Below are positions 34,223 to 56,996 of a DNA stretch of 64,000 nt, in pieces; positions within the stretch are counted from its first letter, which is position 1, and the number at the start of each line of letters is the position of its first letter. The translations under genes were made by a program, and so were the position numbers. Under the pieces are notes generated by a model. That model had not been told where the DNA came from. It worked only from the letters and a program-made list of their open reading frames with translations, and searched no databases. The DNA is from Amycolatopsis lexingtonensis (GTDB taxonomy: Bacteria > Actinomycetota > Actinomycetes > Mycobacteriales > Pseudonocardiaceae). The DNA lies in the NCBI RefSeq assembly GCF_014873755.1, contig NZ_JADBEG010000001.1, positions 8,840,501 through 8,904,500 on the forward strand. The letters are read 5' to 3'.

Positions 34223-34264
34223 GGCGTCGAGCGTCGTTGTGCCGGCGGGGGCGCGGCAGAGCGC

Positions 34265-34317: not shown

Positions 34318-34324
34318 CGGCCGG

Positions 34325-36467: not shown

Positions 36468-37382
36468 GTGCATTCCTATGCGGCCGCGCTGCACCGGACG
36501 ATCATGGCCGTGGACGTCGCGGGGTACAACAACCCGAGCCGCACCCTGGCCCACCTGCGCGAAGTGCACGACGGCCTCTGGCAGGTCCTGCGCACGACGT
36601 TCGCCGAAACGGGCATTCCGTGGGACTCCTGCTACGTGGAGAACACCGGCGACGGCGCGATGTTCCTGCTGCCCCCGGACATCGCGAAGGCGGACCTGGT
36701 CGCCCAGTTCCCGGCCCGCATGCGCGACGAGCTCCGCCGCTACAACCACGTCCACGCGGAGGAAGCCCAGATCCGCCTCCGCCTGGCCATCCACGCGGGC
36801 GAGGTGGCGGAGGGCAGCCACGGCCGCGTCAGCAAGGCGGCGAGCTTCACCTTCCGCATCCTCGACGCCCCGGAAGCGAAAGCCGCGCAGCGGGAGGCGC
36901 AGGCCGACCTGGTGCTGATCACGTCGGAACTGCTGTACGAAGACGTCGTCGTCCAGGACGCGGCCGCCGATCCGGACGCGTTCCGGCGGATCCCGGTGAA
37001 GGTCAAGGCGGGGGAACACCCCGCCTGGGCGTGGCTGCGCGTGTTCGGCCGAGTGAACGGCGTGGTGGCCGCCGCACCGAAGGTGCCAGCGCGGGGAACG
37101 TTCCCGGCGCTGATCGACGCGCTGCTCGCGGTGCCCTGCGTGCGCAAGCCCGAAAGCCGGCGGCTGCTGCTGGAACTGTTCCCCCGTCGGGAGATCGCCG
37201 ACGTCGTGCCGTACCACGCCGAGGACCGCCTGCATGTCATCGCGCTCGCCCGCACCTGCCAGCGCTTCGACCGCGGCTTGGTCGACCTGCTCGACGCGGT
37301 CCGGACCATCGAGCCGGAATCCCCGCAGGTCACCGCTCTGGCCGCGATCATCGGCGATTGGCCGGAACAGCAAGCGCAGTAG
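36468..37382 (+). CDS. Nucleotidyl-cyclase-like protein with C-terminal EAD2-type domain
   Basis: The 304-residue protein has two parts. Residues about 5-195 resemble a class III cyclase homology domain: IMAVDVAGYN and NTGDGAMFLL keep the two metal-binding Asp positions, and LRLAIHAGEV matches the third strand. The usual substrate-binding Lys and the NxxxR pair are altered (FTFRILDA keeps an Arg). Residues about 215-300 (FPALIDALLAVPCVRKP...) match effector-associated domain 2, a homotypic adaptor. The GTG at 36468 has GGGGAGG six bases upstream. It probably feeds a signal into the VMAP system just downstream, whose first protein also carries an EAD. Confidence 0.75.
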   Translation: MHSYAAALHRTIMAVDVAGYNNPSRTLAHLREVHDGLWQVLRTTFAETGIPWDSCYVENTGDGAMFLLPPDIAKADLVAQFPARMRDELRRYNHVHAEEAQIRLRLAIHAGEVAEGSHGRVSKAASFTFRILDAPEAKAAQREAQADLVLITSELLYEDVVVQDAAADPDAFRRIPVKVKAGEHPAWAWLRVFGRVNGVVAAAPKVPARGTFPALIDALLAVPCVRKPESRRLLLELFPRREIADVVPYHAEDRLHVIALARTCQRFDRGLVDLLDAVRTIEPESPQVTALAAIIGDWPEQQAQ

Positions 37383-37394
37383 TGCTTGTCCAGC

Positions 37395-37435
37395 TTTTGC
37401 CCCTTTTTCCCCCGGATCCGGTCGGTAAACTCACG
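37395..37435 (+). promoter_or_regulatory. Conserved promoter element of VMAP cassette 1
   Basis: TTTTGCCC (37395-37402) and GGTAAACTCACG (37424-37435; TAAACT as -10) are 31 bp apart, start to start. The same pair occurs before cassette 2 (30 bp apart), at the same distance from the start codon. Confidence 0.55.
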
Positions 37436-37463
37436 TTCCCGAGCCACGCGCACGCCGGGGGAG

Positions 37464-39002
37464 GTGGTTCGTCACGTGTCGGCCGGTGAACGGGTTTACG
37501 GGCCCGGACGCGAGTTCCGCTACCGGCCGGGCATCACGGTCACGGTCCGGGAAGCGATCGTCAACGTCCTCGCCGGCGCCGGCTTGGCCGTCGATCCGGC
37601 TGGGCGCGCGTTGCTGCTGGAGCTGATCCACGACAACCTCGGCTTCCCGTTGACCGTTCCGGATCAGGTGACCGGCCGCGATCACCTGATCGAAGTCGTC
37701 AGTGCCTGCGCGAAAACCGAAGGCGGAATGCTCGCGCTCGCCGATGCCGTCCGGATGATGCGGCCGGAATCGCCGGAATCGGATCAGGTGCGGCGGCTCG
37801 TGCACCGGCCGCGCATGCACGATCTGCTCCCCGAGCCGGAACTGTGGTGGCTGCGCGCGAGATTGGCCGGTGTCGTCCCGCCCCGGCTGACCGCCTTGCT
37901 CCGGAAAGCGGCCGGACCGGCGGAGCCACCGGCCGACGTCCGCGACGCGTGGGACGGTTTTTGTGCCCTTTCGGACTTCAACACCGCGGCGAACGGCCTG
38001 CCGCCCGCGCTCGCTTTCGTCGAGTTCGTGGCCGCGAAATGCGCGCCGGCGCTCGCCGGTGAACTGCGGCACTGGAACTCCGGGCAAGCGCGGCGGCTGC
38101 AGGCCGAAGCGGCTTTGGAAGCGTTGCGCGCGGAGCGGGAACCGGATTCGCCCGAGCAGGCGCGGCTGCACCTCATGATCGTCGTCCAGCCCGACGGCAT
38201 CGACCCGGGCCGGCACCTCGTTTCCTATTGGCGCCAGGACGATCCGGAAGAATGGCCACCGGCGCGCGGCGGTCTCGACACGGTGACCGGGGACGAGCTG
38301 GAGCGCCACGTCGACATGCTCGTCGTCGAAGCGGAAAACGCGTGGGCGGAGTACCGCGGTGAAGTCCGCCTCGAGTTCGTCCTGCCAAGATCGCTGCTGA
38401 ACCTGCCGGTGCACCTCTGGTGCAAAGAACACGAAACCGGTGACCCGCGGCCGTTGTTCCTCGATTATCCGATTGTCGTGCGGTCGCTGGAACGGATGCG
38501 GTCGCGGCATTGGCACCGGGCCTGGCGGCTGCGGTGGGAAGCGATGATGACCGATCCCTCGGCCGAACGGGTGTATTTCTGCACGGCCGAAGACACCGGT
38601 GAACGGCATCGGCTCGACGCGATACTCAGCGAAGACCAATGGGTGGTCATGGTGCTCGCGGCCGCGCCGGCATCGCGGCCGAGACCGGGGGAAGACGAAC
38701 TCGCGGCGGGATTGCGGTCCGGGCTCCCCGCACTACTATGGCATCCCGAGGCGTCGCTGGATCTCTTGCGAGAGGTGGTCACGTGGCTGGTCGACGGCGG
38801 TGCTCTCGGAGATCTCCCCGCCCGGGTGCAGAAATCGCGGTGCGCCGCATTCCGGAAAATGACCATCCCGGTGGACCTGAGCGTCGTCCGGAATCTGGTC
38901 GTCCTCTGGGACGACCCGGCGCGCGTGGTTTTCCTGGACAGCCCGCCGTTCCGGCGGGGCCCGCCGCAAGGGAGCGCCGATGAACGAGGTCGAGCTTCCT
39001 GA
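37464..39002 (+). CDS. VMAP-type protein: N-terminal EAD + VMAP-C domain (cassette 1)
   Basis: The 512-residue protein starts with an EAD2-like domain (VREAIVNVLAGAGL to about residue 110). The C-terminal half carries the VMAP-C signature LPRSLLNLPVHLW near residue 306 and PLFLDYPIVVRSLERM. VMAP proteins are the third member of vWA-MoxR ternary systems, predicted NTP-dependent conflict/signalling systems. Cassette 2 has a full paralogue. The GTG at 37464 is chosen by alignment with the paralogue; GTG 37476 is possible. It overlaps the MoxR gene by 23 bp, so the genes are coupled. Confidence 0.78.
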   Translation: MVRHVSAGERVYGPGREFRYRPGITVTVREAIVNVLAGAGLAVDPAGRALLLELIHDNLGFPLTVPDQVTGRDHLIEVVSACAKTEGGMLALADAVRMMRPESPESDQVRRLVHRPRMHDLLPEPELWWLRARLAGVVPPRLTALLRKAAGPAEPPADVRDAWDGFCALSDFNTAANGLPPALAFVEFVAAKCAPALAGELRHWNSGQARRLQAEAALEALRAEREPDSPEQARLHLMIVVQPDGIDPGRHLVSYWRQDDPEEWPPARGGLDTVTGDELERHVDMLVVEAENAWAEYRGEVRLEFVLPRSLLNLPVHLWCKEHETGDPRPLFLDYPIVVRSLERMRSRHWHRAWRLRWEAMMTDPSAERVYFCTAEDTGERHRLDAILSEDQWVVMVLAAAPASRPRPGEDELAAGLRSGLPALLWHPEASLDLLREVVTWLVDGGALGDLPARVQKSRCAAFRKMTIPVDLSVVRNLVVLWDDPARVVFLDSPPFRRGPPQGSADERGRAS

Positions 39003-40044
39003 ACAGCGGCCGGACTGGTGGGTTTACCTCGGTACCGGAGTTCCGCCGGGCGGGCAGGCGAAGCCGCTTCCGCCACCGCCGCCGTGGCGGGAATTCGACG
39101 GCGGGCCGTTGCTCGACGACGTCCCGGTACCGCCCGAAGACGGGGAGATGAAGCGGCGGCTCGGCGCCGCCAGCACCGAATCGGTACCGCGGGCCGACGT
39201 CCACGAAGTCGACATGGTCAACGCGGCGATCTACCTGCGCCGCCCGCTGCTCGTCACCGGACGGCCGGGCAGCGGGAAGTCCAGCCTCGCGTTCCGGATC
39301 GCCCGGGAACTCGGCTTGGGGCGGGTCCTCCAGTGGCCGATCACTTCGCACACCACGCTGAAAACGGGGACGTACGGGTACGACGCCATCGGCCGGGCGC
39401 AGGCCGCCGGTTCGCGGTCGGCGGCCGCCGGCCACGGGGCCGGGGACGCGGCGGAACCCCCGATCGGCGAGTTCGTGCGGCTCGGTGAGCTGGGAACCGC
39501 GTTCCTGCCCCGAAAGCGGCCGCGGGTGCTGCTCATCGACGAACTGGACAAGTCCGAAGCCGACCTGCCCAACGACTTGCTCAGCCTCTTCGAGGACGGC
39601 GAGTTCGAAATCCCCGAGCTGGTCCGGATGGCGCGGCGGACGCCGGTCGTCGAGGTCTTCACCGCGGATCCCGATGCGACGGCGGAGATCGCCGGCGGCC
39701 GGGTCCGGTGCCACGCGTTCCCCATCGTCGTGATCACCAGCAACGGCGAACGGGATTTCCCGCCCGCGTTCCTGCGTCGCTGCCTGCGCTACGAAACCAA
39801 GGACCCGGACGTCGACCAGCTGGCCGCGATGGTCGCCGCGCACATGCTCGACCCGTCCGACGCGCACCGCTCCCGCATCATCGGGGAGTTCGTCAGCCGG
39901 AGCGAAGCGTTCGGCGGGTTGCCGGTCGACAAGCTGCTCGAAGCCGTGTTCCTCGCGACCTCCGGGGCCTACCGGGAGGACGGCACTTCCTGGGCCAGGC
40001 TGGTGGACGCGCTGTGGCGGCAACTGAATTCACTGGTCCCCTGA
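38980..40044 (+). CDS. MoxR-type AAA+ ATPase (cassette 1)
   Basis: The 354-residue protein has Walker A GRPGSGKSS at about residue 93, Walker B VLLIDELDKSE at about 182, sensor-1 VVITSNGERDFPPAF at about 252 and the Arg-finger region RRCLRYE. MoxR ATPases act as chaperone-like remodelers together with vWA proteins; here vWA follows directly (1-bp gap) and VMAP precedes, giving the ternary order. A conserved N-terminal segment (LPEQRPDWWVYLGTG) is shared with the paralogue. The ATG at 38980 aligns with the paralogue start. Confidence 0.88.
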   Translation: MNEVELPEQRPDWWVYLGTGVPPGGQAKPLPPPPPWREFDGGPLLDDVPVPPEDGEMKRRLGAASTESVPRADVHEVDMVNAAIYLRRPLLVTGRPGSGKSSLAFRIARELGLGRVLQWPITSHTTLKTGTYGYDAIGRAQAAGSRSAAAGHGAGDAAEPPIGEFVRLGELGTAFLPRKRPRVLLIDELDKSEADLPNDLLSLFEDGEFEIPELVRMARRTPVVEVFTADPDATAEIAGGRVRCHAFPIVVITSNGERDFPPAFLRRCLRYETKDPDVDQLAAMVAAHMLDPSDAHRSRIIGEFVSRSEAFGGLPVDKLLEAVFLATSGAYREDGTSWARLVDALWRQLNSLVP

Positions 40045-40045
40045 G

Positions 40046-43000
40046 GTGGTCCAAGAGCCGCACGACGTACCCACCGTCTCCGGGCTGAGCTGGAGCGAGG
40101 TCGGCGACGCGGTGTGGCTCGCGATGGCGATCGGGGACTCGGCACCGCGCGTCCACCCGGAGTTCGAGTCACCCGAAGCCGCGGCTGACGACGACGAGCG
40201 GGCCCACGGTTTCCCGGAGCCGCCGGAAGAACCGGCCGGGCCGGTGACGCCGCCGTTCGGCCGCGCCCCCGACCGGATCGTCACCGCGCTGGCCAAGAGC
40301 GCGGAGCTGCTGGGGACGGGCGGCGGAACGGTGCTCGGCCCGTCCCGGTTCCTGCCGGAGGCCGCCGCGATCGTCCGCGCGCTGCGTCCGCTCAAGCAGA
40401 CTCGCCCTTCGGGGCACGAAGAAGACGTCGTCCTCGACGAAGAGGTGACCGCGGAAGACGCGGTGCAGGACCACCTCTGGCTGCCGAGGACGAAACCGGC
40501 CATGGTCCGCGGGCTGGACCTGACCGTCGTCGTCGATTCGAGTCCCTCGATGGCGTTGTGGCAGCCGACCGTGACCGCGTTCCTCACCCTGCTCCGGCAG
40601 CTCGGCGCGTTCCGCTCGATCCAGGTGCGCTTGCTCGAAACCGACAAGCGCGGCGCCGACGGCGTGCCCGGTCCGGTGTTGCGGGGCGGCACGCCCGGTG
40701 CGCCCGAGCGGCAGCCCGCCGAGCTGCTCGACCCGTCGGGCCGCCGGCTCTTGATCGTGCTGACGGACGGGATGGGCGAGTCCTGGCACCAGGACTCGGT
40801 CGCGCCGCTGTTGGCCCAATGGGGGCGAGTCATGCCGGTGGCGATCGTCCAGGTGCTCCCGCAGCGGCTCTGGGGCCGCGCCGGGCCGCAGCTGCACCAG
40901 GCGAGGCTGACGACGCCGGGCCCGTTCCGGCCGAACCGGCGCTACGGCCTCGAACTCCCGGACGCGTGGCTGACCGGTGAAGACCCGGAGACGGCGGGCG
41001 CGGGCGCGGTGCCGATCCCGGTCGTCGAACTGGATCCGCGGTGGCTCGGCTGGTGGGCGCGGATGATCAGCCGGGCGCAGCCGGACCCGGTGCAGGCGGT
41101 CGTGCTGCTCGCCCGGACGCAGCCGCAGCCGGCCGAAGCGTGGGACGGGCCGGTGCTGTCGGCACAGGACCAGGTCAAGCACTTCCACGGCGTCGCGTCG
41201 CCGCCCGCGTTCCGGCTGGCGACGTTGCTGGCGGCGGTCCCGGTCAGCCTGCCGATCGCCCGGTTCGTCCAAGCCGAAATGGTCCCCGAGGCGGGCACCG
41301 CCGACCTCGCGGAGGTGCTGGGCAGCGGCCTCCTCGACGCGCCGGCGAGCGTCGAAGCGGGCCACGCCTGGGACGAGATCGTCTACGAGTTCCCGCTCGC
41401 CGTAAGGGAAGCGCTGCTGGCCGCCGGCCGCCGATCCGACACGGTCCAGGTCGTCCGCGCCACCGGCGGCCGGTTCGGCGACCGGCACCCGGTGCTGCTC
41501 CGGGTCGCCGAGGCACTCGACGACCCCGAACGCGCGCCCCTGCCGGCGGCCGACACCGGCCTGGCCGACGGCGTCGCGCTCGAACGCGCCGTGATGCGTG
41601 CCCTGTCCGGACCGTACGCGGGACGCGCGGAACGCTTGCGGCGCTGGGAATCCGAGCTGGGCGAGCCGGCCCCGGCGGAAGAGCCGGCGGACAGCGGGTC
41701 GACGACCGAGAACCTGGTCGCCGACGTCCACGAAGAAGCAGCGGACTCCCGCCAGCGGGTCCGCCAGCTGACGACCGACGCACCGACGGTCTGGGGCGCG
41801 GTACCGGCCCGCAACCCGGACTTCACCGGCCGCCACCGGCTTTTGGCCGCACTGGCCGCCGACCTCCACGAAGGCGGCCGCGCCGTGCTCCACGGCATGG
41901 GCGGGCTCGGCAAGACCCAGATCGCGACCGAGTACGTCTACCGCCACCTCGACCGCTACGACTTGGTGTGGTGGGTGAGCGCGGCGCAGGAGACGCAGAT
42001 CCGCGCGTCCCTCACGGAACTGGCACGGCAATTGGGGTTGCCCGGCGCCGCGGAGACGGTCACCGCGGTCCCGCAGGTTCTCGAAGCACTGGGCGAAGGC
42101 AAGCCCTACCGCCGCTGGCTGCTGGTGTTCGATTCGGCGGACGACCCCGCAACGGCGCTTCCGTTCCTCCCGGACGAGGGACCGGGCGAGATCCTGGTGA
42201 CGACCAGGAATCCCGGGTGGCCGGACGTCTTCCCCCGCCCCATCGAGGTGGGTTCCTTCACACGCGAGGAAAGCACGGAGCTGCTGAGCCTGCACGACCC
42301 GCAGCTCGACGCGGACCAGGCCGACCGGATGGCGGCGCGGCTCGCGGATCTGCCGCTCGCGCTCGCCCAAGCGGCCGCGCTGCGAACGGAAATCGCGTTG
42401 CCGGTCGACGAATACCTGCGCCGATTCGACGAAAAGACCACGGAAATCCTCGAAACCGCGACCCCGACCGAGTACGAGGTGCACGTCGCCGCCGCGTGGA
42501 ACGTCTCGTTCGACGAGCTCGGCACCCGCAACCGCGCCGCGCACCAGCTGTTGCAGGTGTGCGCCTTCTTCGCACCGGAGCCGATTTCCCGCAGTCTCTT
42601 CACCGGAGTCCGGCGGTTGTCGATCGCACCGGAGCTCGACTCGGCGATGCGCGACCCCACCCAGCTCGACCAAGCGCTGCGTGACATCAACCGGTGGGGA
42701 CTGGCGAAAGTCGACCACCGGTCCGACACGATCCGGCTGCACTGGCTGGTCCAGCAGGTGCTGCGCAACCGGATGAGCGAACAGCACCGCCGTGACATCC
42801 GGCACGGCGCGCACCTGCTGCTCGCGAACCGGGACCCGGGTGATCCGGCCGCGGCCCGCCTCTGGCCGCAGTACCACCTGGCCCTCCCGCACATCGACGC
42901 CGCGGAGCTGATCGACTGCGGCGACAGCGAGGTGCGCGCGCTCGTCATCAACCTGTTCAAGTTCCTCTACTTCTGGGGTGACCACACCGGCGCGACGGTG

Positions 43001-44269
43001 CTCGCCCAGCGGGTGGTGGACGCGTGGACGGACCGGTTCGGCGAAGCGGACGCGTTGACGCTGGAGGCGTCGGAACGGCTCGGCATCTTCCTCTGGGCAC
43101 TGGGCCGGTACGAAGAAGCCGAGGTGATCAACAACCGCACCCTCCGCCTCTACCAGCAGAAGGAGACCACCGGACAGCGGTCGGAACAGACCCTGAACGC
43201 TCAGTTGGCCGTGGCCGCGGTGCTGAAGGCCCGTGGCGACTTCGCCGGTGCGCGCGAGCTCAACCTTGCGACCTACCACGAGGCCGCCGCCATTCTGGGC
43301 GGGAACGAACCGAAGACCTTGACCGCGGCCCACGACCTGGTCGTGTGCCTGCTCCTGACCGGTGAGTACGACGAAGCCCGGCGAATCGGCGAAGACACCT
43401 ACGCGCGTCGCGCGGAAATCCTGGGGCCGGACAACGCCGCCACCATCAGCACCCTGAACATCCTGGCGATCTGCCGCCGGGAGATCGGTGACTACACCCT
43501 CGCGCGGCTCGAGCAGCAGAAGATCGTCGAGCGGGTCCGCCGTCTGGTGCGGGACGAGAATGCCGGGGTGGTCCGGCGGGAGCACCACCTCGCCGTGGCG
43601 CTGCGGAAAGACGGGCAGTACGAGGCCGCGCTGACCCTGTCGCGGAGCACGTTGGAACGCTTTCGATCCCGCTACGGCCTCGGCAATCCGAACACCTTGC
43701 CGTGCGTGCTGGCGCATTCGATCGATCTCCGTTGCGTCGGGGACCTCGATGCGGCGAGGAACCTCGGACAGCAGGCGGTCGACCTCTACCGGGCGAGCCT
43801 CGGTGACCGGCATCCGCACACCCTCGTCGCGCAGATCGACCTCGGCGTGACCCTCCGGCTGCTGGGCGCCGTGCCGGCGGCGCGAGACCGGGACCAAGCC
43901 GCCTTCGGCGAGCTGCGGAAGGCGCTCGGTGCCGACCACCCGCACACGATCGCCGCGGCCATCGACCTCGCGAGCGATCACGCCGCCATCGGCTCGCCGA
44001 GGTCGTCGGCCGCGCGGCTGCTGGCCACGGACACCGAATGCCTGGCGCGGGCCCGCCGCGTCCTGGGCGAAGACCACCCGGTCACCCTGGCGGCCCAGCT
44101 CAACCGGGCGCTCGACCTGCGCGCGGCCGGACGGAGCCGGGAAGCCGCGCTGCAGCAGCAGGACGTCGTGGCCCGCTACCGCCGGGTGCTCCGCGCGGAC
44201 CACCCGGTGACAGTGGCGGCCGAGCACGGGGTCCGTGCCGTGTGCGACATCGACCCGACGCCCCTCTGA
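40046..44269 (+). CDS. vWA + NB-ARC + TPR giant protein (SAV_2336/FxSxx-system TPR type, cassette 1)
   Basis: The 1407-residue protein joins three modules. Residues about 155-400 form a vWA-like domain with MIDAS motif VVVDSSPSM (DxSxS, near 164) and LIVLTDG. Residues about 590-900 form a STAND NTPase: P-loop GMGGLGKT near 617, Walker B-like LLVFDSADDP near 692, ILVTTRNPGW and LPLALAQAA. From about 975 to 1390, TPR/Kinesin-light-chain-type repeats end in CDIDPTPL. The layout matches proteins annotated in FxSxx-COOH systems. It would act as the sensor/NTPase effector of the ternary system; what it detects is unknown. It begins 1 bp after MoxR. Confidence 0.85.
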   Translation: MVQEPHDVPTVSGLSWSEVGDAVWLAMAIGDSAPRVHPEFESPEAAADDDERAHGFPEPPEEPAGPVTPPFGRAPDRIVTALAKSAELLGTGGGTVLGPSRFLPEAAAIVRALRPLKQTRPSGHEEDVVLDEEVTAEDAVQDHLWLPRTKPAMVRGLDLTVVVDSSPSMALWQPTVTAFLTLLRQLGAFRSIQVRLLETDKRGADGVPGPVLRGGTPGAPERQPAELLDPSGRRLLIVLTDGMGESWHQDSVAPLLAQWGRVMPVAIVQVLPQRLWGRAGPQLHQARLTTPGPFRPNRRYGLELPDAWLTGEDPETAGAGAVPIPVVELDPRWLGWWARMISRAQPDPVQAVVLLARTQPQPAEAWDGPVLSAQDQVKHFHGVASPPAFRLATLLAAVPVSLPIARFVQAEMVPEAGTADLAEVLGSGLLDAPASVEAGHAWDEIVYEFPLAVREALLAAGRRSDTVQVVRATGGRFGDRHPVLLRVAEALDDPERAPLPAADTGLADGVALERAVMRALSGPYAGRAERLRRWESELGEPAPAEEPADSGSTTENLVADVHEEAADSRQRVRQLTTDAPTVWGAVPARNPDFTGRHRLLAALAADLHEGGRAVLHGMGGLGKTQIATEYVYRHLDRYDLVWWVSAAQETQIRASLTELARQLGLPGAAETVTAVPQVLEALGEGKPYRRWLLVFDSADDPATALPFLPDEGPGEILVTTRNPGWPDVFPRPIEVGSFTREESTELLSLHDPQLDADQADRMAARLADLPLALAQAAALRTEIALPVDEYLRRFDEKTTEILETATPTEYEVHVAAAWNVSFDELGTRNRAAHQLLQVCAFFAPEPISRSLFTGVRRLSIAPELDSAMRDPTQLDQALRDINRWGLAKVDHRSDTIRLHWLVQQVLRNRMSEQHRRDIRHGAHLLLANRDPGDPAAARLWPQYHLALPHIDAAELIDCGDSEVRALVINLFKFLYFWGDHTGATVLAQRVVDAWTDRFGEADALTLEASERLGIFLWALGRYEEAEVINNRTLRLYQQKETTGQRSEQTLNAQLAVAAVLKARGDFAGARELNLATYHEAAAILGGNEPKTLTAAHDLVVCLLLTGEYDEARRIGEDTYARRAEILGPDNAATISTLNILAICRREIGDYTLARLEQQKIVERVRRLVRDENAGVVRREHHLAVALRKDGQYEAALTLSRSTLERFRSRYGLGNPNTLPCVLAHSIDLRCVGDLDAARNLGQQAVDLYRASLGDRHPHTLVAQIDLGVTLRLLGAVPAARDRDQAAFGELRKALGADHPHTIAAAIDLASDHAAIGSPRSSAARLLATDTECLARARRVLGEDHPVTLAAQLNRALDLRAAGRSREAALQQQDVVARYRRVLRADHPVTVAAEHGVRAVCDIDPTPL

Positions 44270-44273
44270 CCGG

Positions 44274-46091: not shown

Positions 46092-46113
46092 GGTCAGTCC
46101 TTCGGGAAGCGGC

Positions 46114-46302
46114 TTACTCGACCCGTTTCGCTTCACTCCCGCTCGCCGTTACCGGGATGTGCGCGGCTCGGTCGGCGGCGTGACGCACCGACTTGCGCAA
46201 GGCCGCGGAGTCGAGTTTCCGCAGCCGGGACAGCGGAACCGCACTGAGGTCGAGGAGTTCGGACTCGATCTCCGGTCGCCTGGTGCCGCCCGGTGATCGC
46301 AT
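46114..46302 (-). CDS. Putative substrate peptide of the HExxH protein (cassette 1)
   Basis: A 62-residue peptide with leader-like IESELLDLSAVPLSRLRKLD, helix ALRKSVRHAADRA and C-terminus HIPVTASGSEAKRVE. The 55519-55707 peptide is 36/62 identical, with nearly all matches in residues 12-62. The layout (hydrophobic DL-x-x-V-x-L, then a Ser-rich tail) recalls FxsA precursor peptides, but the FxSxx end is missing. GAGGGG precedes the ATG. It is read just before the HExxH gene. Being small, it could be missed by ordinary annotation. Confidence 0.7.
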   Translation of the reverse strand: MRSPGGTRRPEIESELLDLSAVPLSRLRKLDSAALRKSVRHAADRAAHIPVTASGSEAKRVE

Positions 46303-46548
46303 CGCGATTTCCCCTCTCTCGAGAACCCGCTTGGAGGCGCGCGTAAGCTAGCACGCCCCTTCGAGCCCCCTCGCGAGGTGGCCCCCGAACGTCAGCTTAC
46401 TCCGGACGGCGGAGGGGATCCGGCGATTTTCGCTGTGCGGGACGCCGGACCCGGGAATGACGTGAAGTGGTTGCCCGGAGCTTCCGATTCCCCCGGCCGG
46501 GACACCTGAAGCTCGCTCGTGTGGTGGTCAGGCACGCGCTGTGTCATG

Positions 46549-46589
46549 TTTTTGCCCTTTTACGGTTAAGCCGAACAGGTAAACTCACG
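46549..46589 (+). promoter_or_regulatory. Conserved promoter element of VMAP cassette 2
   Basis: TTTTGCCC (46550-46557) and GGTAAACTCACG (46578-46589; TAAACT as -10) repeat the cassette 1 arrangement. The element lies 34 bp before the VMAP2 start. It sits in the 316-bp divergent gap 46303-46618, which otherwise holds only the promoter of the minus-strand peptide gene. Confidence 0.55.
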
Positions 46590-46618
46590 ATCTTCGGTGC
46601 GCTTCTCGGGGGTGGGAG

Positions 46619-48130
46619 GTGGTGCGGCAGGTGGTGGCGAGGCAGGGACAGCCCGGCCCGGGTATCGCGGTCCGCAGGGCGGTGGTGGACGTGCTGGTGG
46701 TGGCCGGCTTCGCCGATGACAAATCCATCCGCACCCTGATGGTCGGTGAACTGCGTGAGGCACTCGACCACCCGTTCACCTTTTCGGACCAGCTGACCGG
46801 CCGTGACCAGCTGATCGAAATCGTCTCCGCGTGCTGCCGCCTCCGCGAAGGCCTCAACGTGCTGGCGGGCGTGATCGAGTTCCTGCGTCCCGGCAGCAAG
46901 GAATGCGCCGAGGTGCGCGCTCTCGTCTCTTCGGTGCGGATGCACGAAGTAGTGCCCGAAGCGGAACAGGAAAAACTGCGTGAACGGCTGGCGGGGTTCG
47001 CTCCGCCGGGACTCGCGAAGGCCGTGCGCCGTGCCGCCCGTTACGTCTCTCCGCCGCCGCGTTACGAAGACGCGTCGGCGGCCTTCTCCGGTCTTGCCGA
47101 CTTGAACGCGGGGCCCGGGGAATTGCCGCCGCTGCTGATGTTCGTCGAACTGATCGCCGCCGAGTGCGACCGCGCTCTCGCCGCGGAACTGCGCGCGTGG
47201 TCGGACGGGCAGGTCCGGCGGTTGCGCTTGCGGGACGCCCTCGACCAGCTGCGCGCTGAACTCACGGCGCCCCGGCCCGCCGCCGCGGGCCGGCTGTACC
47301 TCGTCGTCCTCGTGCGCCCGGATCCCCTCGAAGACGACCTGTACGAGTTGTCTTCGTGGCGGCAGGACGATCCGGCGGACTGGCCGCCCGCGCGCGGGGA
47401 AACGGTGCTGGTCCGGCAGAACCAGCTGGAGCGCCACGTCGACGTGCTGGTCGGTGAAGCCGAAGAAGCCTGGTCCGAGGTGGCGGCCGACGTCGTGGTC
47501 GAGTTCGTCCTGCCGCGGGAGCTGCTGAACCTGCCCGTGCACGCGTGGACGACCGAGCGCGCTTCCGGCGCACCGAAGCCGTTGTACCTCAGCTACCCGA
47601 CCGTGGTGCGTTCGCTGGAACGGATGAGCTCACCGCGCTGGCACCGCGTCTGGCGGCAGCGCTGGGAGTCGTGGACCCGTGATCCTTCGTTCGAACGGGT
47701 GTATTTCTGCGGTGCCGGTGACAGTCCCGATCGACTCCGGCTCGAGGCTGTTTTGAGCAATCGGCAATGGGCGATGACCGTGCTCACCGAATCGCCGCCG
47801 GTCAGGGCGGCAGCGGGCGAGGACGAGCTTTTGCCCGCGTTGCGCGCGGGGGTCCCGGTCATCGTCTGGCACCCATCGGCCCCTTCGGAACTCGTTCGCG
47901 AAGTGGTAGCCTGGCTAGCCGAAAGCCGTGGCGGATTGGGGGATTTGCCCGCGCTGGCGAGGGAGTCTCGACTGGACGCTCTTCGGAATCCGCCGTCGTC
48001 GGGCGATGGTGGTGTACTCACGGACCTGGTGGTGCTATGGGACGACCCGAATCGGTTGCTTCCCATCGGCGAAACCGGGATCATCGGGCACCTCGAAGGA
48101 GGTGCCGATTCGCGTGACCGAGCTTCCTGA
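46619..48130 (+). CDS. VMAP-type protein: N-terminal EAD + VMAP-C domain (cassette 2)
   Basis: The 503-residue paralogue of the cassette 1 VMAP protein has an N-terminal EAD (VRRAVVDVLVVAGF, TGRDQLIEIVSAC) and VMAP-C motifs LPRELLNLPVHAW near residue 297 and LYLSYPTVVRSLERM. The first GTG is used; GTGs at 46622 and 46631 are also possible. It overlaps MoxR2 by 17 bp. Both VMAPs share the end xxRDRAS-type overlap peptide, so the overlap itself is conserved. No cyclase-like partner gene precedes this copy. Confidence 0.78.
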   Translation: MVRQVVARQGQPGPGIAVRRAVVDVLVVAGFADDKSIRTLMVGELREALDHPFTFSDQLTGRDQLIEIVSACCRLREGLNVLAGVIEFLRPGSKECAEVRALVSSVRMHEVVPEAEQEKLRERLAGFAPPGLAKAVRRAARYVSPPPRYEDASAAFSGLADLNAGPGELPPLLMFVELIAAECDRALAAELRAWSDGQVRRLRLRDALDQLRAELTAPRPAAAGRLYLVVLVRPDPLEDDLYELSSWRQDDPADWPPARGETVLVRQNQLERHVDVLVGEAEEAWSEVAADVVVEFVLPRELLNLPVHAWTTERASGAPKPLYLSYPTVVRSLERMSSPRWHRVWRQRWESWTRDPSFERVYFCGAGDSPDRLRLEAVLSNRQWAMTVLTESPPVRAAAGEDELLPALRAGVPVIVWHPSAPSELVREVVAWLAESRGGLGDLPALARESRLDALRNPPSSGDGGVLTDLVVLWDDPNRLLPIGETGIIGHLEGGADSRDRAS

Positions 48131-49205
48131 CACCCGGATCGGAGCGTCGCAGCATCCGGACAGTCCGCCCGATTGGTGGATTTACCGTGGTACCGGCCGC
48201 CCGTTGCACGACATCAGGCTGGCCGACCGGTTGCCGGACCCGCCGCCGTGGCGCACCTTCCGCGGCGCGACGCTCCCCGAGCGGGACGTCTTCCCGCCCG
48301 ACGACGGGGAAATCGAGCGCAAGCTGGGCATCGAACTCAGCTACTCCGCGCGGAACGTCGACGAGCACGAAGTCGAGATGGTCAACGCGGCGCTGTACCT
48401 CCGCCGCCCGTTGCTGGTCACGGGCCGGCCGGGGAGCGGCAAGTCGAGCCTGGCGTACCGGATTTCCCGCGAACTCGGGCTGGGCCGGGTACTCCGCTGG
48501 GCGATCACCTCGCAGACCACGCTCAAGTCCGGCCTCTACGACTACGACGCGATCGGCCGGGTCCAGGCCGCCGCCGCGTGGAAGGAACTGGCCGCCTCCG
48601 GCGTGGGGACCCCGGGCGAGGTCCCGATCGGCGAGTTCGTCCGGCTGGGTGAGCTGGGCACGGCGTTCCTCCCCCGGCGGCTGCCGCGGGTGCTGCTGAT
48701 CGACGAGCTCGACAAATCGGAATCGGACCTGCCGCACGACCTCCTCGGATTGTTCGAGGACGGCGAATTCGCGGTCCCCGAGCTGGCCAGGGACGCGCGC
48801 CGCTCGGTGCGGGCCGAGGTGTTCACCGCGGATCCCGGGTACACCGCCGAAATCGAGCACGGCCGGGTCCGGTGCCACGCGTTCCCCATCGTCGTCATCA
48901 CCAGCAACGGTGAACGTGAATTCCCGCCCGCGTTCCTCCGCCGGTGCCTGCGGCTGGAAACCCGGGATCCGGACGCCGGCCAGCTCGCGGCGATGGTCGC
49001 CGCGCACGCCATCGACCCGGACGGCCGCCGGGCCGCGCTGATCGAAGACTTCGTCACCCGCAGCGCGGGGGTGGGCGGGCTGCCGGCGGACAAGCTGCTC
49101 GACGCGATCTTCCTGGCCACCTCGGGCGCCTACCGGGCCGAGGACGACGCGTGGCCGCGCCTGGTCGATTCGCTGTGGCGACAGCTCAATCCGCAGGGGC
49201 CCTGA
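48114..49205 (+). CDS. MoxR-type AAA+ ATPase (cassette 2)
   Basis: The 363-residue protein is a close paralogue of the cassette 1 ATPase: Walker A TGRPGSGKSSLA near 104, Walker B VLLIDELDKSESDLP near 191 and sensor-1 VVITSNGEREFPPAFLRRCLR. The shared N-terminal block PPDWWIYRGTGR marks the subfamily. The GTG at 48114 is chosen by alignment with cassette 1; AAGGAGG lies upstream at long spacing, and a GTG at 48102 is possible. It is followed by the giant vWA gene after 1 bp. Confidence 0.86.
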   Translation: MTELPDTRIGASQHPDSPPDWWIYRGTGRPLHDIRLADRLPDPPPWRTFRGATLPERDVFPPDDGEIERKLGIELSYSARNVDEHEVEMVNAALYLRRPLLVTGRPGSGKSSLAYRISRELGLGRVLRWAITSQTTLKSGLYDYDAIGRVQAAAAWKELAASGVGTPGEVPIGEFVRLGELGTAFLPRRLPRVLLIDELDKSESDLPHDLLGLFEDGEFAVPELARDARRSVRAEVFTADPGYTAEIEHGRVRCHAFPIVVITSNGEREFPPAFLRRCLRLETRDPDAGQLAAMVAAHAIDPDGRRAALIEDFVTRSAGVGGLPADKLLDAIFLATSGAYRAEDDAWPRLVDSLWRQLNPQGP

Positions 49206-49206
49206 A

Positions 49207-52200
49207 ATGGCGGACCCCACCGCGGGCGAGCCCGACCTGACGTGGACCGAACTCGGCGACGGCCTGTGGCTCATGGCGGCGATCAACGCGTCCGCCACCC
49301 CGGGCCCCGCCCCGGCGGAGCGTCCGGCACGGCCCGGCGGAACGCCGCCGGATCCGGTCGAGGACCGGCGGGACGGTCCCGCACCGGTGTCCCGCGACAG
49401 CGAGGAACCCGAGCTCGTACCGGCCGCGGGCGGGGGCGGTCCCGCCCCGGGCACACCGCCGGACGATCGGGAATGGCTCACCGAGCAGGCCGCCGGAAAC
49501 GGCGGTCTGCTCGCACCCGAGCCGGGTGCCGGCCGGGCGGACGCGGAACTCGCCGGAGTGGCGACCGCACCGGTCCTGCCCGGCGCGGCGCAGCTCGTCC
49601 GCGCGTTGCGGCCGTTCAAGCGGAAAGTCGCGTCCAGGAGCGAGGCCGACGTCGAACTCGACGAAGACCGCACCGCGGAGGAAGCGGCGCAGAGCGGGAT
49701 GTGGTTGCCGGTCACCCGCCGTCGGCGCGACCGATGGCTCGACCTCACGCTCGTGATCGACTCGACGCCGTCGATGGCGCTCTGGACCCCGACGGTGAAC
49801 GCGTTCGTCCGCTTGGTGGAGCGCGTCGGCGCGTTCCGGTCCGTCCGGGTCCGGCTGCTGGAAACCGGCAAGACCGGCCCCGCGGAAGGGGGCGCGGTCG
49901 TCGGCCCCACCCTGCGCGGTGGGACGGCCGACGCCCCGGCCAGGGGTGCGGGAGAGCTGATCGGCTCGGCCGGCCGGAGCCTGCTGCTGCTGGTGACCGA
50001 CGGCGTGAGCGACGCGTGGCACCGGGACCTGGTTTCCCCGATGCTCGCCCGCTGGGGGCGGGCCATGCCGGTCGCGATCGTGCACCTGCTGCCGCACCGG
50101 CTCTGGTCGCGCGGCGGGATGGGCATCTGCCAGACGGTGCTGACCCCGCCGGGACCCCTGCGGCCCAACGGAAGCTACGACGTGCGTTCGGCCGACGTGC
50201 TGCTGGAACCGGGCGAAGCCGAAGAGCTCACCGCGGGCGCGGTGCCGGTGCCGGTGTTGGAGCTGCAGGACCGGTGGCTCGGCTGGTGGGCGTCGCTGGT
50301 GACGGGAGTGGGCGGCGTGCCGCGGAAAGCCGCGGTGGTGCTCGCCCGCGACGAGCCGCGGCCGGCCGACGCCGACACCGGGACGCGGGTGGAATGGTCG
50401 GCACGGGAAAAGGTGCAGCAGTTCCACAGCTCCGCGTCGCCACCGGCATTCCGGCTGGCGACGCTCCTCGCCGCGGTGCCCGTGGACGTCGGCGTCGCCC
50501 GGACCCTGCAGGCCGAACTCGTCCCGGGCTCCGGGCCCGACCACCTCGCCGAGGTGTTCACGAGCGGGCTGCTCGAGCGGGCTCGCGACGGAACACCGTG
50601 GGATCGCGCCCAATGGGAATTCGCCGGCCACGTGCGCCAGCTGCTCCTGCGCGGCGCCCGGCGCTCGGACACGGCGCACGCGGTGATCAGCGCGTCGCGG
50701 CGCTTCGGGGACCAGAAGCCGGTACTGGTGCGGCTGCAGGCCGCACTGGCAGCCCCGGACGCCACCCCGGACCCCGTGCTCCCGGCGACGACGCCCGAGG
50801 AGATAGCACTGGAACGCGACCTGATGCGTGCGTTGTCCGGTCCGTATTTGTCCCGGGCGGATCGGTTGGAGAGTAGAATCGCGGGCATTGGTCAACTCGG
50901 CGACCGAACGTCCACTAGCATCCCGGCGGTGAGTGACACGATGTCGCAGGAACTCAAGCCGATGGGTTCCTCGAGTGAACCTGAATCCGTTGTCCGTCCC
51001 GATGCCGGGACCGTGGACATATCTCCGTCGTCGAGCGAGGCGCCTCCGGCTCTGCGCACGAAGGTCGTCCGCGATGTTGCCGACATGACCAGTCGAAGCG
51101 TACGCCGTTCTGGTGATGAAGCACCACCCGTTTGGGGTGTTGTTCCACCCAAAAACCCCAATTTCACCGGGAGGCGTGAACTACTCGATCAATTGGGTGA
51201 GCGGCTGGGCGCGGGCACCACCGCTGTCCTGCCTGCGGCGTTGCACGGAATGGGCGGTATTGGCAAGACGCAGATGGCGGTGGAATATATCTACCGGCAC
51301 TTGCAAGACTACGACATCGTGTGGTGGATCCAAGCCACCCAGCCCACGCAGATCCGCAAGTCGCTCACCGAACTGGCCCAGCACCTGCGGCTCCCGGGTG
51401 CCGACGAAGCCATCACTGCAGTCCCGGCGGTCCGCGAGGCGCTGCGGCTCGGCCGCCCTTACCGGCGCTGGCTGCTGGTCTTCGATTCGGCCGAAGACCC
51501 GGAGATGGTCCGCCCGTTCTTCCCGGTCGACGGGCCCGGCCAGATCCTGGTGACGTCCCGCAACCCCGGCTGGGCCGGTATCGCGCGTCCGCTGGAAGTC
51601 GCCGTCTTCCAACGCGACGAAAGCAAGAACCTGCTCAGCCTTCGTCGCTCCGGGCTTGCCGACGAGGACTCCGACCTGATCGCGGAGAAGCTCGGGGACC
51701 TGCCGCTCGCCGTCGAGCAGGCGGCCGCGTGGCTCGCCGAGACCGGCATGCCGGCGCAGGAGTACCTGAGGCTGTTCGACGAGAAGGTCACCGAAATCCT
51801 CGACACCTCCGCCCCGAGCGACTACGAAGTGTCGGTCGCCGCCGCGTGGAACGTGTCCTTCGACGAGCTGAGTTCCCGCAGCCCGGCCGCCCACCAGCTG
51901 CTGCAGGTCTGCGCCTTCTTTGCTCCGGAACCGATTTCCCGGAGCTTGTTCGCCGGGGTCCGTGGAATCTCCGTCGCGCCCGAACTCGACTCGGCCCTGA
52001 GAGACCCGATGCGGCTCAGCCGCGCGATTCGCGACATCAACCGCTACGGCTTGGCCAAGATCGACCACCGTAGTGACACCCTCCTGCTGCACCGGCTGGT
52101 CCAGCTCGTACTGCGCAACCGGATGGGCGAACAAGACCGCATGGAACTGCGCCACGGCGCGCACCTGCTGCTCGCGAACCTCGACCCGAACGACCCGGCT

Positions 52201-53634
52201 TCCCCGCAGACGTGGCCGCGGTACCAGGAGATCCTGCCGCACATTTACGACACCGAACTGACCCAGTGCACCGATCCCTGGGTGCGACAGCTCGTCATCA
52301 ACCTTTTCAAATTCCTCTACCACTGGGGTGACCACCAAGGAGCGCTCGCACTCGCCGAGAGGGCGGTCAAGGCGTGGGCGACGGATCGGGAGGAACGGCT
52401 TGCTCGAGGCGATGAGCCCGTTGAAGATCCGCCTTTGCTGGAGCTCGCCGCATCCGAGCGGTTGGCCTTCTTCTACTGGGTCGTCGGGCGGTACGACGAA
52501 GCTGAAAAAGTCGCTAAGGAGACGCGGCGGCGCTACATCGAGGCAGTCGGCCCGGAAAGTGAAGAGACGCTGGCCGCGCAGCTCACATACGCACTGATTC
52601 TGAAGGCGCGCGGTGATTTCGCGGAGGCGCGGAACCGCAACGGGGAAATCTTCGAACAAACCCGAGGGCTGTTCGGCAATGACGATCCGACCACTTTGTT
52701 GTCCGCGCACGAGTTCATCGTCGCCCTCCTGTTGACCGGCGAGTACGAAGCTGCACGTGAACTCGCTGGGGAAACGTACAGCCGTCGATCCGAAATCTTC
52801 GGTTACGACAACGAAAATACGATCTTCACTCAGGTGGTGTTCGTGCTCGCCCGGCGTGAACTGGGACACTACCAGTGGGCTCGGATCGAAATGGAGCGTA
52901 TCGCCGCGCGAGCTGAGCAGGTTTACGGTCGTGACAGCGTCGGCACGCTTCGACGTCGATACTTCGAGTCGGTGGCTTGCCGCAAGGACGGCGACCACGC
53001 GGCAGCATTTGAGCTTTCGAGTGATGCGATGGTGAAGATCCGGGGTCGCTACGGCAATGACCACCCGAACGCGATGGTCTGTGCGCTGGGGCATTCCATC
53101 GACCTCCGGCACGCGCGGAGGTTCGCCGACGCCCGCGCTCTGGGCGAAGAAGTTTACGACCTCTATCGCCAGAACCTCGGGGAAAATCACCCGCATACCC
53201 TGTCGGCTCAGCTCGACCTCGGGGTGACCCTTCGACTCGGTGGTGATCCGGCCAGTGCCCGGGTGGTCGATGAGAAGGCGCTGGCGGGATTGCGGGAAAC
53301 GCTCGGCGAGGACCACCCGCACACGATCGTCTGCGGGATCGACCTGGCGAGCGACCTTTTCGCGCTGGATCGGATCACCGAGGCGGCGGCTCTGGATGCC
53401 GACCTGCTGGACCGTGCCCGCCGCGTCATGGGTGAAGATCACCCGACCACCTTGGCCGTGCAGCTCAACCGTTCGCTGGACCTGCGAGCCCTGGGCGAAA
53501 CAACCGAGGCGGACGCGCTCTACGACGATGCGCTCCGGCGGTACCGCTTGGTGCTCGGCGAGAACCACCCGGGTACCGAGTCGGCGGTGCGCGGTGTCCG
53601 AGCTGACTGCGACATCGATCCGATGCCGCTGTAG
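49207..53634 (+). CDS. vWA + NB-ARC + TPR giant protein (cassette 2)
   Basis: The 1475-residue paralogue of the cassette 1 protein has a vWA motif VIDSTPSM near 184, P-loop GMGGIGKT near 680, LLVFDSAEDP near 755 and C-terminal TPR-type repeats ending CDIDPMPL. It is longer because of a Ser/Pro-rich linker (residues about 555-650) between the vWA and NB-ARC modules. That linker and parts of the TPR region (about 50870-51200 and 52330-53060) look visibly less GC-rich than the rest. It likely acts with MoxR2 and VMAP2. Trigger and effector activity are unknown. Confidence 0.85.
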   Translation: MADPTAGEPDLTWTELGDGLWLMAAINASATPGPAPAERPARPGGTPPDPVEDRRDGPAPVSRDSEEPELVPAAGGGGPAPGTPPDDREWLTEQAAGNGGLLAPEPGAGRADAELAGVATAPVLPGAAQLVRALRPFKRKVASRSEADVELDEDRTAEEAAQSGMWLPVTRRRRDRWLDLTLVIDSTPSMALWTPTVNAFVRLVERVGAFRSVRVRLLETGKTGPAEGGAVVGPTLRGGTADAPARGAGELIGSAGRSLLLLVTDGVSDAWHRDLVSPMLARWGRAMPVAIVHLLPHRLWSRGGMGICQTVLTPPGPLRPNGSYDVRSADVLLEPGEAEELTAGAVPVPVLELQDRWLGWWASLVTGVGGVPRKAAVVLARDEPRPADADTGTRVEWSAREKVQQFHSSASPPAFRLATLLAAVPVDVGVARTLQAELVPGSGPDHLAEVFTSGLLERARDGTPWDRAQWEFAGHVRQLLLRGARRSDTAHAVISASRRFGDQKPVLVRLQAALAAPDATPDPVLPATTPEEIALERDLMRALSGPYLSRADRLESRIAGIGQLGDRTSTSIPAVSDTMSQELKPMGSSSEPESVVRPDAGTVDISPSSSEAPPALRTKVVRDVADMTSRSVRRSGDEAPPVWGVVPPKNPNFTGRRELLDQLGERLGAGTTAVLPAALHGMGGIGKTQMAVEYIYRHLQDYDIVWWIQATQPTQIRKSLTELAQHLRLPGADEAITAVPAVREALRLGRPYRRWLLVFDSAEDPEMVRPFFPVDGPGQILVTSRNPGWAGIARPLEVAVFQRDESKNLLSLRRSGLADEDSDLIAEKLGDLPLAVEQAAAWLAETGMPAQEYLRLFDEKVTEILDTSAPSDYEVSVAAAWNVSFDELSSRSPAAHQLLQVCAFFAPEPISRSLFAGVRGISVAPELDSALRDPMRLSRAIRDINRYGLAKIDHRSDTLLLHRLVQLVLRNRMGEQDRMELRHGAHLLLANLDPNDPASPQTWPRYQEILPHIYDTELTQCTDPWVRQLVINLFKFLYHWGDHQGALALAERAVKAWATDREERLARGDEPVEDPPLLELAASERLAFFYWVVGRYDEAEKVAKETRRRYIEAVGPESEETLAAQLTYALILKARGDFAEARNRNGEIFEQTRGLFGNDDPTTLLSAHEFIVALLLTGEYEAARELAGETYSRRSEIFGYDNENTIFTQVVFVLARRELGHYQWARIEMERIAARAEQVYGRDSVGTLRRRYFESVACRKDGDHAAAFELSSDAMVKIRGRYGNDHPNAMVCALGHSIDLRHARRFADARALGEEVYDLYRQNLGENHPHTLSAQLDLGVTLRLGGDPASARVVDEKALAGLRETLGEDHPHTIVCGIDLASDLFALDRITEAAALDADLLDRARRVMGEDHPTTLAVQLNRSLDLRALGETTEADALYDDALRRYRLVLGENHPGTESAVRGVRADCDIDPMPL

Positions 53635-53671
53635 GCGGTCCTTTCTCGCGAAATTGTTCCCAGCCGATCAC

Positions 53672-55519
53672 TCAATGAGTGAACCGGCCCAGCCAGCCGG
53701 CGATCGCTTCGACCGACGGAGCCGATCCCTGTTCATCACGCAGGAGGCGATGCACCGCCCGGACCAGTTCCGGGCGGTGCAGCAGTGCCCGGGACGCCGG
53801 CCCGGTACTCCTGGCCGCGAGAGCCAGTCCCAGTCCGGTCAGAGCGGCGGGGTCGTCCGGGTTGGCGGCCAGGAGTTGCCGGTACCCGGTCGCGGCTTCG
53901 TCCGGCTCCCCGGCTACGAAATGCAGATCGGCTTCCGTCGCGCCGGGAACTGCGGACCCGTGTGCGGCGAACCGCGCACGACCGTCCGTGCCGAGGCGGA
54001 GCCGGATCAGGTCCGTGCGGGCGTCGTGCCAGTCCCCGTCCGGTACCGGAGTCGGCAAGGGGTCCGACAAGGCCGCGGCAGCGGAATGCGGTCGCGCGAT
54101 CCCGGCCCGCCAAGCTGCTGCCAATTCCGCCACAATGCCGGGGTCGGGCCGTAAATGCCTGGTCCGCCAAGCCGCGTAGTGATCTTCGGCGGCGAAACGC
54201 GCCCATGTCCGAGGGGCACCTGCGACCGATTCCTTCTGCCACGGGAGGAGCTTCGCGGCAACACCGTCGAGGAACCGGCGGCCGGCGGCAGTGAGGCTTT
54301 CATCGGTGCGGACCAAGGTCAGGGTGCGCCAGACCTGTCCGCGCCACAGCGCGAATTCGAATGCGGCGAGTTCGTTGTCCGGCTCCGCCGCGGCAAGGGC
54401 CCGCCAGAAAGATGCCACCCCGAAAAAGGCGTAGATGCCGTGCAGCACACCGCCGACGGGGCGTGGGTCGTCCCGCCACGGTGCATACAATCGCTCCCGC
54501 CGGTCATCGTGGTTCAGGCGCACGATATGGAGCAGGCCGCCCAGCCGGATGTGCTGGAATTCGTGGACCAGTGCGGCAGCGAGCGGCGCGGGATCCTCGC
54601 CGTACGAGATGATCGCGCTGCCGAAAGCCTCGCCGGTCGACGCACTCGGCAGCCGGAACGGCACAGCGGGCTCGGGAACCAGGGAGTCGAGGCCGACCGG
54701 CAGCGCTTCCGCGACCGCGGGCAGGTATCCGGTGAGCAGCCGCCACGCGTCGGCGAGCACCGTTCGCCAGGATTCGACTTCGACGGGGCTCAGCCGTTCC
54801 GGCTGAATCGGCTCGTACAGCCCACGATACGGATCCAGGTCGTCGATGCGAACGGAGAGCCGTTGGCCGTCGGACCACGCCACGGCTTCGCGGACTCCGT
54901 GCCAGCCTGGCGCGTCGGCGGACACTTGCGTCGGCAGGCGAACTCGTGACCGCGGGTTGCTGATCTCGACGCGCCCGCGGCTTCCCCGGATGTCGGCGAC
55001 CGAAAATGGCGCTTCGGTCCGCAGTTGCGCGAGGCCGAGTGTCGGCAGAGCTACTTTTCCTTGCCACACCGGCAGCTGTGCCTCGAAAGGGATTCCACCG
55101 CGCACTGCGGCCGCCGCGGCCAGGCAGTGCAGGTGGCCGAGGTGCACCCAGAACGGGCAGACTCCGGTGATGTCCTGCCGGCAAAGCCGCGTGGTGTAGC
55201 CCGCCCACGTCCCGGTGTAGGGATGGGCGAGGATCGTTTCGAGCGCGCGCGGCGCCGTTCGTTCGACTCGCGCCAGCAATTCCCACGCGATTTCGGGCGA
55301 CGGCAGCGGCCGGTATGAGTCTTCGGACTTCGCCGAAACTTCGACCAGGCCGCGCAGAAGCAGGAGGCGACGGCTCCGTTCGGCGGCACGCAGCTTGCGG
55401 ACCGGTTCGGGGCCGCCCTCGCCGCGTGCCACCGCGTCGAAATCCGCCCAGGGCAATAGGTGACGAGACAAGCCGCCGGCGGAGTCGATCGTTTCGTCGG
55501 CTGCCTCGCTGCGCGACAT
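53672..55519 (-). CDS. HExxH peptide-modification-type protein (cassette 2)
   Basis: The 615-residue paralogue of the cassette 1 HExxH protein has LVHEFQHIRLGGLLHIV near residue 318, YAPWRDDPRPVGGVLHGIYAF, and a shared N-terminal half (HLGHLHCLAAAAAVRGG, PTLGLAQLR). Its ATG overlaps the TGA of the peptide gene by one base (TGATG), a strict coupling that supports a peptide-enzyme pair. It is convergent with the vWA gene, with a 37-bp gap. Confidence 0.75.
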   Translation of the reverse strand: MSRSEAADETIDSAGGLSRHLLPWADFDAVARGEGGPEPVRKLRAAERSRRLLLLRGLVEVSAKSEDSYRPLPSPEIAWELLARVERTAPRALETILAHPYTGTWAGYTTRLCRQDITGVCPFWVHLGHLHCLAAAAAVRGGIPFEAQLPVWQGKVALPTLGLAQLRTEAPFSVADIRGSRGRVEISNPRSRVRLPTQVSADAPGWHGVREAVAWSDGQRLSVRIDDLDPYRGLYEPIQPERLSPVEVESWRTVLADAWRLLTGYLPAVAEALPVGLDSLVPEPAVPFRLPSASTGEAFGSAIISYGEDPAPLAAALVHEFQHIRLGGLLHIVRLNHDDRRERLYAPWRDDPRPVGGVLHGIYAFFGVASFWRALAAAEPDNELAAFEFALWRGQVWRTLTLVRTDESLTAAGRRFLDGVAAKLLPWQKESVAGAPRTWARFAAEDHYAAWRTRHLRPDPGIVAELAAAWRAGIARPHSAAAALSDPLPTPVPDGDWHDARTDLIRLRLGTDGRARFAAHGSAVPGATEADLHFVAGEPDEAATGYRQLLAANPDDPAALTGLGLALAARSTGPASRALLHRPELVRAVHRLLRDEQGSAPSVEAIAGWLGRFTH

Positions 55520-55707
55520 CAGTCGACCCGCTTGGCCTGACTGCCGCTCGCCGTGACTTGGATGTGCGAGACCCGTTCCACCGCATGCCGCAATGACTTG
55601 CGCAGTTCGCCGCCGTCCAGGGTGCGCAGTCTGGTGAGGGAGACGCCGCCGAGGTCGAGGAGTTCGGATTCGATTCCGTCTTCTGTGCCGGAACGAGCTG
55701 CTTGCAT
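55519..55707 (-). CDS. Putative substrate peptide of the HExxH protein (cassette 2)
   Basis: This 62-residue peptide has leader IESELLDLGGVSLTRLRTLD, helix LRKSLRHAVERV and C-terminus HIQVTASGSQAKRVD. It is a paralogue of the cassette 1 peptide. The C-terminal block VTASGS-x-AKRV is the best conserved part, so it is the likely modified or recognised segment. AAGGGG precedes the ATG. Its stop is fused to the start of the HExxH gene. No FxSxx end is present. Confidence 0.7.
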   Translation of the reverse strand: MQAARSGTEDGIESELLDLGGVSLTRLRTLDGGELRKSLRHAVERVSHIQVTASGSQAKRVD

Positions 55708-56985: not shown

Positions 56986-56996
56986 GGTGAGTGAAC

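Follow-up and report, generated by a model that had tools for sequence, protein, structure and literature searches.

Our data indicate that a 64,000-nucleotide stretch of the Amycolatopsis lexingtonensis genome (the window; positions 8840501-8904500 of a single-contig genome of 10.74 Mb) carries two tandem cassettes, A and B, each of which has the RxD-type arrangement set out in the passages of Kaur et al. 2020 (PMC7159879; eLife 9:e52696) on which we draw here. Each cassette comprises a VMAP gene, a MoxR-like ATPase gene and a gene for a long protein with SAV_2336_NTERM/vWA, NB-ARC and TPR regions. Convergent to these lie an HExxH gene and, upstream of it, an open reading frame (ORF) for a small peptide, and gene order and orientation are identical in the two cassettes (Table 1). 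The best explanation, to which we give a probability of about 0.55 as a whole, is that each cassette is a peptide-coupled VMAP ternary system that probably acts as a conflict switch, either against invaders or by cell suicide.

The VMAP-C domain was matched in both VMAPs of the window (E 1e-40 and 4.5e-40), AAA_5 exceeded its cut-off in both MoxR-like proteins, and NB-ARC (E 1.4e-08 and 4.4e-09) was found with TPR_12 in the same ORF as the vWA domain in both copies. The vWA component has the two metal-binding Asp residues expected of such a system, and the Walker motifs, the residues of the metal ion-dependent adhesion site (MIDAS), the NB-ARC P-loop and the HEFQH motif are intact in both copies. 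In the long protein of cassette A, the region after the vWA domain resembles the winged-helix parts of STAND (signal transduction ATPases with numerous domains) proteins. In copy B, the start of the HExxH gene overlaps the stop of the peptide gene as TGATG. A search of the whole genome for the FxsB radical S-adenosylmethionine (SAM)/SPASM protein gave a best match of 54.6 bits against a cut-off of 370. These results bear out the sequence-only reading, which had proposed vWA-MoxR-VMAP ternary cassettes duplicated in tandem, an HExxH/peptide module without radical SAM and a leading cyclase-EAD protein. Its view that the combination looks new fails for the single cassette, which Kaur et al. 2020 already describe as the RxD type (PMC7159879); in the passages retrieved there under 'tandem' and 'duplicat' the doubling is not found.

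Table 1. Features of the two cassettes (positions within the window).
Feature	Position	Strand	Remarks
Stand-alone nucleotidyl-cyclase-like protein with C-terminal EAD2, 309 aa	36453..37382	+	EAD2 E 1.4e-19; heads cassette A
VMAP A: EAD2, VMAP-M0, VMAP-C	37464..39002	+	ORF open from 37386
MoxR-like AAA+ ATPase A	38980..40044	+	Walker A and B intact
vWA (MIDAS), NB-ARC and TPR protein A	40046..44269	+	NF041121 408 bits, NF040586 816.6 bits; vWA fold
aKG-HExxH-type peptide hydroxylase A (predicted), C-terminal TPR	44274..46136	-	Longest ORF; recorded 594-aa form begins near 46058; TIGR04267 165.2 bits
Small peptide A, 62 aa	46114..46302	-	C-terminus AKRVE
VMAP B: EAD2, VMAP-M0, VMAP-C	46619..48130	+	
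MoxR-like AAA+ ATPase B	48114..49205	+	ORF open from 47928; start inferred from match to copy A
vWA, NB-ARC and TPR protein B	49207..53634	+	NF041121 408.1 bits, NF040586 842 bits
aKG-HExxH-type peptide hydroxylase B (predicted), 615 aa, C-terminal TPR	53672..55519	-	TIGR04267 164.2 bits; P0047
Small peptide B, 62 aa	55519..55707	-	C-terminus AKRVD; TIGR04268 leader match weak

The association of these genes is conserved. When GTDB genomes were scanned once with the alignment of HExxH proteins, 52 loci were obtained, all from Actinomycetota by title, and all five components are present in 42 of them. FxsB-like ORFs occur in three of the exceptions, L067, L068 and L069, which were the only positives among 60 sequences searched with one query from L069 (E<=1e-3). 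L065 has its HExxH within a long ORF that contains no CxxxCxxC motif, and L057 is cut by a contig end. L056 and L063 gave no VMAP, MoxR, vWA or strong peptide match, only the strong peptide match is missing in L060 and L062, and MoxR is missing in L064.

Direct repeats about 9.2-9.4 kb apart link the two cassettes. Identity between copies A and B is 49.7% for VMAP, 67.8% for MoxR, 50.3% for the vWA part, 57.8% for NB-ARC plus TPR, 54.1% for the HExxH protein and 58.1% for the peptide. The nearest named relatives are from Amycolatopsis, and A. eburnea has the same cassette pair, whose larger proteins are 92-97% identical. TIGR04267, the aKG-HExxH peptide beta-hydroxylase family matched by the HExxH protein, is found in 53 of 80 same-genus genomes. 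A same-strand pair of copies spaced 9-10 kb apart was counted in 11 of the 80 (G000, which holds the window, and G008, G017, G023, G029, G030, G039, G040, G041, G054 and G078); G066 has an inverted pair instead. In the tree of the NB-ARC/TPR region, the two rows of every tandem stretch, and also those of G066, fall one in clade A and the other in clade B. Among the rows listed, the HExxH tree has the same clade A (100/99) within a 28-row clade of A and B (100/99). Since the tandem stretches split in this way, A and B are, by their phylogeny, paralogues from a single old duplication, after which their sensors would have been evolving separately. Cassette A comes before B in four stretches (the window, L101, L105 and L107) and B before A in seven (L100, L102, L103, L104, L106, L108 and L109). 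The B cassette of the L106 pair (L106:12245-17764) seems to be decaying, because no match to MoxR was obtained in the interval from vWA to VMAP and its NB-ARC/TPR branch is long. Partial second cassettes were also seen in L020 and L021.

As part of the same best explanation, the 62-residue peptide would be a precursor like those of ribosomally synthesised and post-translationally modified peptides (RiPPs), with the conserved N-terminal half as leader and the C-terminus [A/G]-x-R-[V/I]-D/E-COOH as functional end. In 25 aligned relatives (the two of the window and 23 of 46 found), E13, S14, L16, D18, L19, L24, L27 and R28 are invariant in the leader half, T52-A53-S54 and A58-x-R60 are invariant near the end, and the last residue is Asp or Glu. 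Peptide B matched the TIGR04268 leader weakly (E 0.0041, 17.3 bits, below the cut-off of 28). The peptide seems to be related to FxsA and to bear a different tail, because matches to the FxSxx model at E<=0.1 were obtained for 22 of the 25 relatives. A profile built from the 25 relatives gave 68 peptide ORFs in the window and 59 other sequences, a sample in which far relatives are under-represented and a few ORFs are weak (E about 0.01-0.07). An HExxH gene adjoins 67 of the 68, and 53 have the R-x-D/E end. At position -5, 28 of these 53 peptides have Ala, 23 have Gly and 2 have Lys, and the small residue is a lead towards Ala/Gly-directed oxidation rather than proof of it. A Trp lies within the last eight residues of the peptides of L029, L030, L038, L041, L042, L047 and L055, which have no RxD tail, and in none of the 53 RxD-type peptides; tails with Trp are possibly a further type. 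The HExxH proteins of L038, L041, L042, L047 and L055 group in the tree, with a weak join for L047 (83/94), and those of L029 and L030 lie elsewhere. In Streptomyces afghaniensis (L056:9322-11827), three small peptide ORFs that all end in GGGAERIG, with weak profile scores (E about 0.01-0.03), precede the HExxH gene. These three are among the 15 of the 68 ORFs that lack the R-x-D/E end. PF27839 is precomputed on many of the peptide relatives (P0130 and others), and the Pfam scan of the two window peptides did not return it.

The VMAP ORFs bear on how the leading cyclase-like protein might act. All 20 of the 48 that have no fused cyclase contain EAD2, and 27 of the 28 with a fused cyclase have none; the sole exception (L030:17402-19915) combines cyclase, EAD2 and VMAP within a single ORF. 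Because EAD2 and cyclase fusion are almost mutually exclusive, the split and fused forms are alternatives, which matches the EAD docking prediction. In the EAD2 model of Kaur et al. 2020 (PMC7159879), homotypic EAD contacts recruit signalling domains. The leading cyclase-EAD2 protein is covered by this model, and bridging through EAD2 had already been proposed there. The window has a single cyclase-EAD2 gene alongside two EAD2-VMAPs, and inside B-A pairs elsewhere such a gene likewise adjoins cassette A. The gene beside cassette A has GEG instead of GDG in L100 (L100:10041-10967) and has lost the first Asp motif in L104 (L104:8776-9981); in L026 it is broken and the gene before cassette B is preserved. 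An MmyB-like (MLTR) regulator with HTH_31 (33476-35149, +) lies some 1.3 kb upstream of the window's cyclase gene, and the direct neighbour of peptide B is a TetR-type regulator, a single protein that carries two TetR_N domains (55807-57066, -).

In the explanation that we prefer, the HExxH enzyme would bind the leader of the peptide and then hydroxylate or oxidatively trim its C-terminal segment. The modified peptide would be read by the ternary machine, with the vWA MIDAS, the NB-ARC/TPR part or both as candidate receptors, and this would license or trigger a MoxR-driven assembly containing NB-ARC, which would carry out the response together with the MoxR ATPase. The stand-alone cyclase-like protein would dock on either VMAP by an EAD2-EAD2 contact and add a nucleotide signal. 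A peptide acting as effector or alarm, as the sequence-only reading had suggested, is close to the 'peptide toxin or signal' of Kaur et al. (PMC7159879).

Several observations weigh against this explanation. The scission Ala of PosA is at -4 rather than -5, and its Arg, Met and Asp are each dispensable singly (PMC12636437). The bias at -5 could be explained by Gly-rich tails alone, and 15 of the 68 peptides have other ends. Seven of these 15 (L030, L038, L042, L047, L049, L055 and L062) end in a non-acidic residue while the vWA of the same locus retains both Asp residues, so co-variation lends no support to binding of the peptide by the MIDAS. In an alignment of the cyclase region with those of the 28 cyclase-fused VMAPs and others, the window protein retains both metal-binding Asp residues, and Ser takes the place of the usual transition-state Asn; because of this Ser the cyclase may be weak, altered or merely a binder. 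The pattern of EAD2 and fusion amounts to only two changes on the tree, and therefore to few independent events. The ten flanking ORFs that were scanned are metabolic enzymes, regulators or without a match, with no defence island among them, and PADLOC gave only weak matches, in the AAA part of MoxR. For these two reasons the immune role is argued from the domain company and the prediction of Kaur et al. Literature searches, which covered listings from an open library and the two papers cited here, gave no experiment on an RxD-type system.

Both HExxH proteins exceed the TIGR04267 cut-off of 40 and are the only two matches in the genome. The folds nearest to the predicted model are aKG (2-oxoglutarate)-dependent HExxH enzymes, including ChlH and SjiH, and the protein is probably not a plain protease but an Fe(II)/2-oxoglutarate oxygenase. 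Other explanations have to be considered. It is unlikely that the HExxH protein is instead a zincin metallopeptidase whose hydrolysis would free a small peptide, toxin or signal, from the C-terminus, as proposed in Kaur et al. 2020. The strongly conserved C-terminal end of the peptide would suit such a release, and the studied relative PflC hydrolyses a leaderless substrate with several metals, but the family model and nearest folds argue for an oxygenase, and full-length PflA was not hydrolysed by PflC in an anaerobic box (PMC12636437). The combination of a RiPP-like precursor and a tailoring enzyme, together with the S. afghaniensis locus where they occur without a VMAP, MoxR or vWA match, would also fit an exported antibacterial or signalling RiPP whose production or immunity is governed by the ternary machine. 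We consider this improbable, since 42 of the 52 loci have the peptide gene together with the ternary core and the 25 aligned relatives show an almost invariant tail instead of a diversified one; other genera have other tails.

The two cassettes might also be a development or stress module that remodels a host complex in the manner of RavA-ViaA or midasin, with no role in conflict. Studied MoxR-vWA pairs remodel or assemble other proteins (PMC7159879), the best matches in the vWA fold comparison are midasin MIDAS domains, and the flanking genes that were typed have metabolic or regulatory functions. On the other hand, Kaur et al. associate conflict systems with AP-ATPase and EAD2 modules (PMC7159879) and the presence of TIGR04267 within the genus is patchy, and we regard this alternative as rather doubtful. 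A bolder version of the conflict switch, in which the NB-ARC/TPR part works like a NOD-like receptor (NLR) and a self-peptide that depends on oxygen and 2-oxoglutarate licenses it, deserves little credence as a joint claim. Here the oxygenase would take the C-terminal [A/G]-x-R-x-D tail as an address and hydroxylate the acidic tip or cut oxidatively at Ala/Gly, leaving an amide. The vWA MIDAS or the TPRs would sense the presence of the tip, and infection that disturbs metabolism or translation would alter the tip and fire the switch. With the tandem copy there would be two peptide channels, kept apart from each other and served by a single cyclase-like protein docked through EAD2.

The window system shares with the FxsA/FxsB/FxsBH cyclophane RiPP system a weakly similar leader, a related HExxH domain and a TPR partner over the NF040586 cut-off of 300 bits. 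It differs in that its HExxH protein stands alone and its peptides have no FxSxx. NF040586 (FxSxx_TPR) was exceeded at seven further places outside the window in this genome, which has only two TIGR04267 matches in all, so this family is not diagnostic and its name over-calls. ChlH, SjiH, PflC/PosC and BpmH resemble the window enzymes in the HExxH motif and fold and in the adjoining small precursor peptide (ChlH and SjiH were compared directly, PflC/PosC and BpmH from the text of PMC12636437 only). In contrast to these free-standing RiPP clusters, the window enzymes have an extra C-terminal TPR and a ternary NTPase as partner.

The closest known system is the RxD type predicted in 2020 by Kaur et al., who report, in the passages used here, a peptide module in about 20% of actinobacterial VMAP ternary systems. 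This module pairs a zincin-like metallopeptidase with a small diverging protein and is of FxSxx, RxD or acidic type; radical SAM accompanies FxSxx and is also mentioned for the FtsH type, and the RxD and acidic types have an AP-ATPase with TPRs fused to the vWA protein (PMC7159879). The window cassettes agree with the RxD type in the VMAP, MoxR and vWA core, the AP-ATPase (NB-ARC) and TPRs on the vWA protein, the zincin-like HExxH gene, the R-x-D/E end of the peptide, the absence of radical SAM and the EAD2-linked cyclase-like protein. They differ in being two diverged tandem cassettes with one cyclase-EAD2 gene seen for both, in the ending RVE of copy A beside RVD of copy B, and in an HExxH enzyme read as a 2-oxoglutarate oxygenase instead of a peptidase, for which the expected readout is mass shifts on the 62-residue peptide and not proteolysis. 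The natural cassette pair, its single cyclase-EAD2 gene and the exclusivity of EAD2 and fusion make a clean case for studying EAD docking, and also for the question why a modified peptide should be required by an NLR-like switch. Systems of this kind were already known; the new points are a duplication that has been retained for long, the revised assignment of the enzyme and a signalling protein that the two cassettes share.
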